From assembly GCA_947479455.1 (NCBI GenBank), contig CANJZE010000010.1:57696-121695 (forward strand): a DNA stretch of 64,000 bases, read 5' to 3'. A program made the position numbers and the translations under genes. The DNA comes from Bacteroidota bacterium (lineage in GTDB: Bacteria > Bacteroidota > Bacteroidia > Chitinophagales > LD1). Positions 59,417 to 61,708 of this stretch are shown one piece after another (position 1 is the first letter of the stretch; the number at the start of each line of letters is the position of its first letter). Below the pieces are notes generated by a model that was not told where the DNA came from, made no database searches, and saw nothing but the letters and a program-made list of their open reading frames with translations.

Positions 59417-59499
59417 TAGTTGCAAGAATATAAAATGGAAAAGACTTCTGATTACCGCGAGAATCTGTTCAGGTAGTCTTTAGAATTCATGTATGCCCT

Positions 59500-59528
59500 T
59501 TGAAAAAAACAAAAAGCGAATATATTTG
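59500..59528 (+). promoter_or_regulatory. Promoter of tRNA-Asp (TTG -N18- TAnnTTTG)
   Basis: ttg 59500-59502; tatatttg 59521-59528; tRNA begins at 59546. Confidence 0.7.
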
Positions 59529-59545: not shown

Positions 59546-59619
59546 GGACCGGTAGTTCAGTTGGTTAGAATGCGTCCCTGTCACGGACGAGGTCGCGGGT
59601 TCGAGTCCCGTCCGGTCCG
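59546..59619 (+). tRNA. tRNA-Asp (anticodon GTC)
   Basis: ggaccgg...ccggtccg acceptor stem, anticodon loop ctgtcac, T-arm gcgggttcgagtcccgt. Confidence 0.96.
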
Positions 59620-59658
59620 CTTAAAGCCTCTCAATAAAATGAGGGGCTTTTTTGTTTT
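59609..59658 (+). repeat. Direct repeat copy 1: tRNA-Asp 3' end + terminator
   Basis: cgtccggtccgcttaaagcctctcaataaaatgaggggcttttttgtttt, identical to 60016-60065. Confidence 0.95.
59623..59658 (+). terminator. tRNA-Asp terminator
   Basis: aaagcctctcaataaaatgaggggctttttt. Confidence 0.8.
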
Positions 59659-59707
59659 TGAAGACCGATAGCCCTAAGTATTTCATTAAATTCGGGGGCT
59701 TTATTTT

Positions 59708-59920
59708 ATGCAGGAATACTACGTCTATATCATCAAGAGTAAAAAGGATAATTCATTTTATGTTGGACAGACGAATGATATTGAACGAAGGTTATTAGAA
59801 CATAATGCAGGACTTTCTTCTTATACTTCTTCCAAAGCACCATGGAATCTACATTATTTAGAAGAAGTGAACACTCGCGAAGAAGCAATGAAACGCGAGA
59901 TGTTTTTGAAGAAGCAATGA
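59708..59920 (+). CDS. GIY-YIG (URI domain) endonuclease family protein, C-terminally truncated
   Basis: 'YYVYIIKSKKDNSFYVGQTNDIERRLLEHNAGLSSYTSSKAPWNLHYLEEVNTREEAMKREMFLKKQ*'; the stop is created by a 29-bp tandem duplication. Confidence 0.85.
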   Translation: MQEYYVYIIKSKKDNSFYVGQTNDIERRLLEHNAGLSSYTSSKAPWNLHYLEEVNTREEAMKREMFLKKQ

Positions 59921-59939
59921 AACGCGAGATGTTTTTGAA
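59882..59939 (+). repeat. 29-bp tandem duplication
   Basis: gaagcaatgaaacgcgagatgtttttgaa x2 (59882-59910, 59911-59939). Confidence 0.97.
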
Positions 59940-60015
59940 GAAGCAACGCAATAGGAACTTCTATGAGAAAATTAAAAACATATAACTGTCTGCGGGTTCC
60001 CCCGAGTACTCGGGG

Positions 60016-60065
60016 CGTCCGGTCCGCTTAAAGCCTCTCAATAAAATGAGGGGCTTTTTTGTTTT
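60016..60065 (+). repeat. Direct repeat copy 2: tRNA-Asp 3' end + terminator
   Basis: Identical over 50 bp to 59609-59658; preceded by gcgggttc + palindrome ccccgagtactcgggg. Confidence 0.95.
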
Positions 60066-60154
60066 CTCCCGAAACCTAATAACAGCAAAATTTTCCTTTG
60101 TCCAGAGAAAGAGCTATGCGCACTTTCGCATCAACTAAACTCAAAACAATGAAA

Positions 60155-61708
60155 ATGAAATCTACACTTATCGCAGCGGTGCTTATTGCCTGTTGCCTTT
60201 TACCAACGCTTATTTATTCACAAGCAGGTTCGCTCGACCTTAGCTTCAACAGCACGGGTATTGTTACCACTGCTGTAGGCACAGGAGAAGACCAGGCGAA
60301 CGCAGTTGCTATTCAAGCCGATGGCAAAATTGTAGTGGTGGGAAACAAAGTTGCCGGCTTTAGCACCGATGTTTCTGTGATTCGATACAACGGCAATGGC
60401 TCTTTAGATAATACCTTCGGCACCGGAGGAAAAACGTTTACCGATTTCGGCACCTATGACGATAATGCCCGCGCAGTGGCTATTCAAACCGATGGCAAAA
60501 TTGTGGTGGCGGGTTATAGCACTATTGTTTCGAAACTCAACTTTACTATTGCGCGCTATCAAACCAACGGCTCTTTAGATTCTACTTTCGGCACTAATGG
60601 AAAACAGAATACTTCCATAGGAATTTATAATGATTATGCTACGGCAATAGCCATTCAAACCGATGGAAAAATTGTAGTAACCGGCTATACCCAAACCAAT
60701 GGAGCGAGTTACTTTACCGACTTTGCCATGGTGCGTTACGATACCAACGGCTCGTTAGATAATAACTTCGGCACAGGCGGAATTGTCACCACCGATTTCG
60801 GAAGTATTTTTGATTATGCCTTTGCGATTGCCTTGCAAACCGATGGCAAAATAGTATTGGCAGGAGAAAGTTCCACCAACCCTGGTGATGTTGATTTTGC
60901 CGTAGCCCGCTACAACACCGATGGAAACCTGGATACTACTTTCGACAGTGATGGAAAACTGATTACCGATTTCGGAGGGCACAATGACGAGGGCATGGGA
61001 GTAGGCATACAGACCGATGGCAAAATAGTAGTGGGAGGATTCACGAATGATAGTGTGACGGTAGCCGGTCTTTTTGCAGTTACTCGCTACAATACTAACG
61101 GAACGCTCGATACCACCTTCGACCACGATGGTCGGGTAAAAACAAATGTAGCCAACAATATTTCTGGAAGCAACGCCATGGTTATTCAACCCGATGGCAA
61201 AATAGTATTGGCGGGTTATAACCGGTTCCCTGGAGATTCTCAGGATTTTGCAGTAGTGCGCTATACGACCAACGGCAGCTTAGATACTTCCTTCGATGCC
61301 GATGGAAAAGTTTTGACCGATGTTGGCAGCACTACCGAAACTGCTCAGGCAATGGCATTGCAAACCGATGGAAAAATTGTAGTAGTGGGAACTACCAACA
61401 ACGGCAGTAACCTCGATGTGGCAATAGTGCGCTATGGTAATTTCGGAACGGTGGATGTGGCTGATGTTCCTGCTGCGCTTACCACCACAACGGTTTATCC
61501 AAATCCATTCTCGGGTGAACTGAAAATAAAAGGCACCACCGAAAAGGGAGAAATTATTTTGTTCGATGTTACAGGAAAAGAAATCATTCGCGAGAGAACA
61601 ACCGATGAGGAAACAAAAATAAATACTCAAAAAATAATATCGGGTTATTATGTGCTCAGCTACATAGAAGAAAACAGAACATCAAATACCAAGCTGCTTA
61701 AATTTTAA
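60155..61708 (+). CDS. Secreted delta-60 repeat (DUF5122) protein with T9SS type A sorting domain
   Basis: Seven 'Q(T/A/P)DGKIV' repeats with 'NGSLD.TFG..G' spacing; C-terminal 'VYPNPFSGELKIKGT...YVLSYIEENRTSNTKLLKF'. Start refined from 60098. Confidence 0.88.
   Translation: MKSTLIAAVLIACCLLPTLIYSQAGSLDLSFNSTGIVTTAVGTGEDQANAVAIQADGKIVVVGNKVAGFSTDVSVIRYNGNGSLDNTFGTGGKTFTDFGTYDDNARAVAIQTDGKIVVAGYSTIVSKLNFTIARYQTNGSLDSTFGTNGKQNTSIGIYNDYATAIAIQTDGKIVVTGYTQTNGASYFTDFAMVRYDTNGSLDNNFGTGGIVTTDFGSIFDYAFAIALQTDGKIVLAGESSTNPGDVDFAVARYNTDGNLDTTFDSDGKLITDFGGHNDEGMGVGIQTDGKIVVGGFTNDSVTVAGLFAVTRYNTNGTLDTTFDHDGRVKTNVANNISGSNAMVIQPDGKIVLAGYNRFPGDSQDFAVVRYTTNGSLDTSFDADGKVLTDVGSTTETAQAMALQTDGKIVVVGTTNNGSNLDVAIVRYGNFGTVDVADVPAALTTTTVYPNPFSGELKIKGTTEKGEIILFDVTGKEIIRERTTDEETKINTQKIISGYYVLSYIEENRTSNTKLLKF

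Follow-up and report, generated by a model that had tools for sequence, protein, structure and literature searches.

What kind of mobile DNA leaves a duplicated 3′ end at a tRNA gene when the duplicated ends enclose one small gene and no integrase? Bacterial mobile DNA classically lands at tRNA genes, for which integrases have been accepted as the cause. The question is raised by a tRNA-Asp locus in a 64,000-nucleotide stretch of a Bacteroidota bacterium genome (the window; the genome is referred to here as G000), for which an earlier note had suggested that a lone GIY-YIG nuclease might be the mobility enzyme of a very small, homing-like element.

The locus, all of whose features lie on the plus strand, begins with an intact host tRNA-Asp (GTC) gene (59546–59620, ARAGORN) that has been kept functional, followed by its terminator, a hairpin with a T-run (59621–59658). 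This tRNA is identical at 75 of 75 positions to tRNA-Asp in the GIY-YIG-less congeners G004, G015, and G010, and a near-identical terminator lies 3′ of tRNA-Asp in G004 (L122). The final 12 nt of the tRNA together with the terminator constitute the first copy of a 50-bp direct repeat (59609–59658), and a tRNA 3′ end with a second terminator copy constitutes the other (60016–60065). A repeat search bears out the earlier description of this repeat as perfect and spaced by 407 bp, and chance is excluded for an exact 50-base match inside 0.5 kb. Also as described, the only gene between the copies is that for a small GIY-YIG protein (ORF 59708–59920; PF01541, E=5.6e-19), and no integrase is present in the element at this tRNA-Asp.

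The repeat and the nuclease thus stand; what that description missed are a frameshift in the nuclease gene, a palindrome, and the full length of the second tRNA piece. A perfect 29-bp tandem duplication (59879–59936, units 59879–59907 and 59908–59936), known from one assembly, breaks the nuclease frame. The present stop is at 59918–59920, and the original frame runs to a stop at 59983–59985 with a C-terminal QRNRNFYEKIKNI like that of relatives; taking the ORF list, the PF01541 match, and the C-terminus common to loci L040–L046 together, we assign the broken gene to 59708–59985. Because it is frameshifted, the nuclease is probably crippled and, reading from the sequence, this copy of the element is likely no longer autonomous. 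Alignment to the local tRNA extends the second tRNA-Asp piece beyond the 50-bp repeat: it comprises nt 50–57 (the 5′ T-stem plus TTC, GCGGGTTC; 59992–59999), a perfect 16-bp palindrome CCCCGAGTACTCGGGG that replaces nt 58–63 of the T-loop (60000–60015; compare L200 and L040–L046), and nt 64–75, the 3′ acceptor strand (60016–60027).

Ahead of tRNA-Asp in the window, 59473–59505 was considered as a 5′ remnant of a tRNA and rejected; G004 has the same sequence beside its tRNA-Asp without upstream copies (L152), so it is no evidence of insertion. The region 3′ of the element, from 60066 onward, is inverted in G015, where it lies upstream of tRNA-Asp (L123) with 87% identity, and the tRNA-Asp neighborhood has therefore been rearranged. 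This region includes an ORF (60098–61708) whose product is probably secreted and has repeated units resembling DGKIVVAG and a sorting-like domain at its C-terminus; inside the ORF, 171- to 180-bp repeats span 60223–60869.

The same nuclease family is found at other tRNAs of this genome. A PF01541 search of the 3.76-Mb sequence identified three small GIY-YIG genes, all three beside a tRNA gene on the same strand: tRNA-Asp, tRNA-Leu(CAG), and tRNA-Arg(TCT). A partial copy of the local tRNA with a hairpin in its T-loop lies 3′ of each nuclease gene. At Leu and Arg the hairpin is inserted after TTC and before GA, and at Asp it takes the place of nt 58–63; the Leu partial copy reads GTGGGGGTTC[CCTGCCCGACTGACTGCGTTAGCGGTCAGGCAAG]GAATCCCTTCCCGGGCAC. 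Two larger GIY-YIG proteins of the genome (frames of 626 and 405 aa) have no tRNA close by, and padloc returned weak partial matches only. The Arg element (L003) carries two different partial tRNA copies in succession, each with its own terminator, one having a palindrome as its anticodon arm (TCCCGATTTTTAATCGGGA) and the other a T-loop hairpin.

Congeners in which these loci are empty reveal the geometry of insertion. The Leu locus is unoccupied in G015, with flanks identical at 901/988 positions upstream and 923/999 downstream, and relative to it the element adds 346 bp: the flank ttttcaattagctaattagcc, which in G015 is directly 3′ of the tRNA, lies 346 bp further on in G000, past the palindrome-bearing copy. 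The terminator behind the intact tRNA-Leu came with the element, since it is absent from G015. Similarly, the Arg locus is empty in G004 (flanks 90% and 85% identical), and the element there adds ~445 bp. The native terminator is at the far end in both cases, and the element therefore supplies a replacement tRNA end. Insertion at Leu and Arg is precise, leaves the tRNA intact, and moves the native 3′ end and terminator to the distal side; the geometry proposed for Asp, in which the tRNA is regenerated without an integrase, is thus found at both. The nuclease is also missing at tRNA-Asp in 29 relatives, among which G004 has the same leader, the same tRNA, and the near-identical terminator; the flanks of the empty Asp loci are rearranged or their contigs end, and it is at Leu and Arg that exact junctions are read. 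G007, a more distant relative, has the Leu element in deleted form, and G015 and G004, which are nearer, lack it, such that gain and loss are not separable at this locus; the empty sites could instead be precise losses through recombination between direct repeats.

The association with tRNA genes extends far beyond this genus. In a scan of species genomes, 52 of 80 small GIY-YIG loci lie no more than 400 bp from an intact tRNA, always on its strand, against ~3.7 expected from the background tRNA density in the same 80 loci (0.058 per kb); the query was a four-row alignment, which biases the loci toward relatives of the window nuclease. A larger set, pooled from two partly overlapping collections with identical proteins counted once, contains 213 unique nuclease genes, of which 156 have an intact tRNA no more than 500 bp away, the nuclease lying downstream in 110 and upstream in 46, and every hit with a tRNA at this distance (172/172) is on the tRNA strand. 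The tRNAs adjoining nucleases represent 18 isotypes, counted from the labels on the nuclease tree. Most hosts are Bacteroidota, and named records also include Patescibacteria groups, Chloroflexi, Neomarinimicrobiota, and Desulfatiglandales. Related nuclease genes occur in 103 of 149 Bacteroidia genomes (E<=1e-6), tRNA presence having been checked for part of these hits. Viral contigs yielded two matches only, with one sub-lineage as query, and there is therefore no sign of phages as the vehicle. In G190 (L259, L260), a larger island seems to have inserted in the 3′ end of a tRNA-Asn, so that the GIY-YIG unit is now separated from its tRNA and this one tRNA-Asn serves elements of two kinds.

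Across the family, the element measures ~350–460 bp, with 407 bp in the window, and consists of one nuclease gene, a palindrome-interrupted tRNA segment, and usually a terminator. The partial tRNA copies are of the local tRNA, as 5′ pieces upstream of the intact gene and 3′ pieces downstream; the controls for partial copies are few, with 2 of 10 control tRNAs positive, some of which may represent similar units that lack a nuclease. In 103 loci we examined 188 interrupted copies, 88% of which contain a hairpin with a perfect stem of 6 bp or more, compared with 6% of matched controls (64% and 2%, respectively, for stems of at least 7 bp). Of 124 interruptions, 53 are in the anticodon arm, 21 at the D/anticodon junction, 20 in the T-arm, and 15 in the D-loop, and the other 15 cover a wider span. 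Near-identical units also form tandem arrays: G140 has ten 457-bp units at tRNA-Met and four 379-bp units at tRNA-Asn, and G129 has three 345-bp units at tRNA-Leu. Most of the genomes are drafts, in which further arrays may hide where repeats meet contig ends.

The palindromes vary in their letters and retain their stems. At an orthologous tRNA-Asn locus in one genus they read TCCCGTTCGAACGGGA, TCCCGATGGGTCGGGA, and TCCCGTTTAAACGGGA, and stem mismatches comprise 10 G·T and 10 A·C, with no G·T excess, which favors a DNA-level palindrome over RNA pairing. We think it highly improbable that the nuclease acts on tRNA or tRNA-like RNA, with the palindrome-bearing copies serving as decoy or antitoxin RNAs and movement being secondary. 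Isotype specificity, tandem tRNA-like units, and the invariable strand would all suit such a role, but the lack of a wobble-pair excess argues against selection at the RNA level, including that for a Type III-like RNA antitoxin, and the geometry of insertion and regeneration would be left unexplained. Moreover, the partial copies cannot fold as full tRNA mimics, because one acceptor strand is usually missing; that in the window keeps only the T-arm and the 3′ acceptor fragment.

The palindrome is linked to the nuclease lineage and travels with it. The nucleases closest to that of the window (58–66% identical; Flavobacteriaceae and other Bacteroidota) are all at tRNA-Asp, where a 5′ copy is interrupted at the D/anticodon junction by TCCCGAGTACTCGGGA or a palindrome nearly identical to it; the palindromes of L040–L046 share the core of that in the window. 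In L200, from another family and with a nuclease only 48% identical, exactly CCCCGAGTACTCGGGG occupies the same T-loop position as in the window, joined to the acceptor end of its own tRNA. The core CCCGAGTACTCGGG thus accompanies Asp-lineage nucleases (48–66% identical) at two tRNA positions and in different orders.

Similar palindromes and units are also found without the nuclease. TCCCGN(2-12)CGGGA palindromes number 119 in the whole of G000, compared with 9 for a reversed control pattern, or ~one per 32 kb, and most are away from tRNAs, so the palindrome of the element may be a borrowed one. Nuclease-free tandem units, three at each site, lie upstream of an intact tRNA-Val (L175) and another tRNA-Leu (L179) in G000, each unit being composed of a leader, a 5′ tRNA part, and a TCCCG...CGGGA palindrome; tRNA-Asp in G007 (L131) likewise has three nuclease-free tandem units (tRNA leader, 5′ tRNA part, and palindrome) directly upstream. 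Host recombination can therefore at least copy units. Could it account for everything, with tRNA duplications made and decayed by the host in the manner of the tail repeats at Escherichia coli tyrT, the nuclease hitch-hiking, and dispersed palindromes landing in nonfunctional copies? The nuclease-free arrays, the scattered palindromes, and the suitability of direct repeats for unequal crossing-over are consistent with this, but we judge it very unlikely. It does not anticipate the enrichment at tRNAs and strict co-orientation (172/172), the tie between palindrome and nuclease lineage across orders, the presence of palindromes in most partial copies in spite of their sparseness genome-wide, or an element that brings its own terminator. 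It is also at odds with selection on the protein, as dN/dS is ~0.1–0.2 in the Asp lineage where dS is measurable, indicating that the nuclease is maintained by purifying selection.

The nuclease itself is a bare, single-domain GIY-YIG protein of ~80 residues with no recognizable DNA-binding domain. Active-site-type residues—Y, Y-x-G, R, H, E, and K—are invariant in alignments of 16 and 40 rows, which include the Tyr, Tyr, Arg, and Glu conserved in GIY-YIG domains. Its profile matches UPF0213 (1zg2; 7e-16), SLX1 (1.5e-8), and, more weakly, I-TevI (2.7e-3), and an AF2 model (pLDDT 95.7) has 1zg2, SLX1, and I-TevI as its nearest folds, in agreement with the profile ranking. On the nuclease tree, tRNA isotype changes 58 times, compared with 114 in shuffles (0 of 200 were that low), and tRNA-Asp accounts for 2 changes among 11 rows; the tree is built from 80 columns, many of its forks are unresolved, and near-copies in related hosts contribute to the signal. 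The window nuclease is 66% identical to Flavobacteriaceae proteins, compared with 42% to a congeneric nuclease at tRNA-Asp (G012), whose element has a different palindrome, which argues for horizontal movement.

A match between nuclease lineage and target is a homing trait, and free-standing GIY-YIG homing genes of the I-TevI and Seg type similarly lie beside a conserved target. In the strictest form of homing, the nuclease would cut the intact tRNA gene, repair would proceed from the element-bearing copy, and the palindrome would destroy the cut site. The tRNA segment is indeed missing exactly at the palindrome, there are weak matches to homing endonuclease profiles, and repair from a sister would also yield tandem arrays. 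However, the target is unaltered: occupied and unoccupied tRNA genes are identical, both for the window tRNA-Asp and for that of L042, which equals its GIY-less counterparts in G140 and G099 (75/75) and is the stronger case because the window nuclease is broken. Homing would thus need some other protection of the host. The nearest relatives of the nuclease, UPF0213 and SLX1, are structure-specific, with I-TevI well behind, and homing genes of these types differ further in that the elements described here have palindrome-bearing copies of the target and no recognizable DNA-binding domain. We regard cutting of the tRNA gene itself as unlikely; as an interpretation, then, the tiny homing-like element is supported overall, each of the three checks listed in the earlier note (enrichment beside tRNAs, empty loci in relatives, and other tRNAs of this genome) having turned out in its favor, and its simplest form is disfavored.

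We consider it fairly probable that these are minimal, integrase-free mobile elements that live in tRNA genes and whose nuclease acts on the palindrome. A circular unit, or one released from an array, would integrate when its palindrome-interrupted tRNA segment undergoes a single crossover with the host tRNA gene, whereby one tRNA copy stays or becomes intact and the other receives the palindrome. A crossover 3′ of the palindrome would give the order intact tRNA, terminator, nuclease, and partial 3′ copy; one 5′ of it would give partial 5′ copy, nuclease, and intact tRNA. The nuclease may act on the palindrome as a duplex or cruciform, making breaks or resolving junctions and so promoting integration and tandem growth, and the direct repeats would permit both array growth and precise loss. 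SLX1 processes branched DNA (PDB titles), which makes structure-specific action on a cruciform or junction the natural guess. The released intermediate, cleavage of the palindrome and its role in movement, and the nuclease as a cause of movement beyond host recombination are what we infer from these patterns; host recombination alone seems insufficient because of the strict co-orientation, the selection on the nuclease, and the link between palindrome and nuclease lineage.

How do these elements relate to known systems? They resemble integrase elements and prophages at tRNA 3′ ends in inserting into the tRNA, providing a replacement 3′ end, and displacing the native end and terminator, and the interruptions in the anticodon arm and T-loop are positioned much like known integrase sublocations. 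Unlike those, they have no integrase or other gene and span ~350–460 bp rather than kilobases, with no tyrosine or serine recombinase in the single-gene units of 345–457 bp; they also have a palindrome in the partial copy, tandem arrays, and a mirror-image version at the tRNA 5′ end. UPF0213 single-domain proteins and SLX1 share the fold and are closest in sequence, but they occur as stand-alone proteins of the chromosome or, in eukaryotes, as repair nucleases, and we know of no such protein that is the sole gene of a tRNA-inserted element. The tyrT tail of Escherichia coli has tandem repeats (rtT), each with a tRNA 3′ tail; to our knowledge, these are at a single locus and have neither a nuclease gene nor a palindrome-interrupted tRNA. 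The terminal inverted repeats and short target duplications that mark insertion sequences or MITEs were not found, the repeats being direct and tRNA-derived with no inverted ends around the unit. For the Rickettsia palindromic elements, we are aware of no associated nuclease and no tRNA regeneration. They are alike in having palindromes inside genes, with RPE-1 lying within one (PMC3733652). REPtrons of the TnpA-REP/RAYT type (PMC8266576, PMC2817692) share a small nuclease gene flanked by palindromes, an arrangement also found here, and dispersed palindromes elsewhere, but here the enzyme is GIY-YIG and not an HuH Y1 transposase, and the palindromes are inside tRNA copies. In action the element resembles an integrase element and in appearance a REPtron with another enzyme, and the defining enzyme of each is missing.

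tRNA gene fragments derived from integrating elements have been described by van der Gulik et al. 2023 (PMC9897764), with GIY-YIG unmentioned. Searches of open-licence papers yielded no account of small GIY-YIG genes beside tRNAs, a scope in which absence is not proof, and this widespread kind of mobile element is apparently undescribed. If the proposed mechanism is true, a one-gene element of less than 500 bp that enters a tRNA gene, spares the tRNA, and multiplies as tandem units would rank with the smallest known autonomous mobile elements, would account for many of the tRNA gene fragments in these genomes, and would offer a clean model of how a nuclease with no recognizable DNA-binding domain finds its target.

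There is a second group of small GIY-YIG genes that is tRNA-free (e.g., L012, L016, L022, L030, L036, L159, and L170), with shared REP-like dispersed repeats on both sides. Shared dispersed repeats flank 9 of 13 tRNA-free small GIY-YIG genes, compared with 2.7% of controls, and this group hints at a wider principle. We tentatively raise the possibility, plausible if short of likely, that a broad, unrecognized class of palindrome-based mobile DNA in Bacteroidota and other phyla has small GIY-YIG proteins as its enzymes, with one branch entering tRNA genes without an integrase by processing a palindrome-interrupted tRNA segment and other, tRNA-free branches spreading REP-like palindromes. If so, the GIY-YIG fold would be a third enzyme solution for integration at tRNA sites and palindrome mobilization, besides tyrosine/serine recombinases and HuH nucleases. 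The repeats that flank the tRNA-free genes are of the types GTCATGCTGAGC...CGAAGCAT and GTCATTGCGAGG...GAAGCAATCT.
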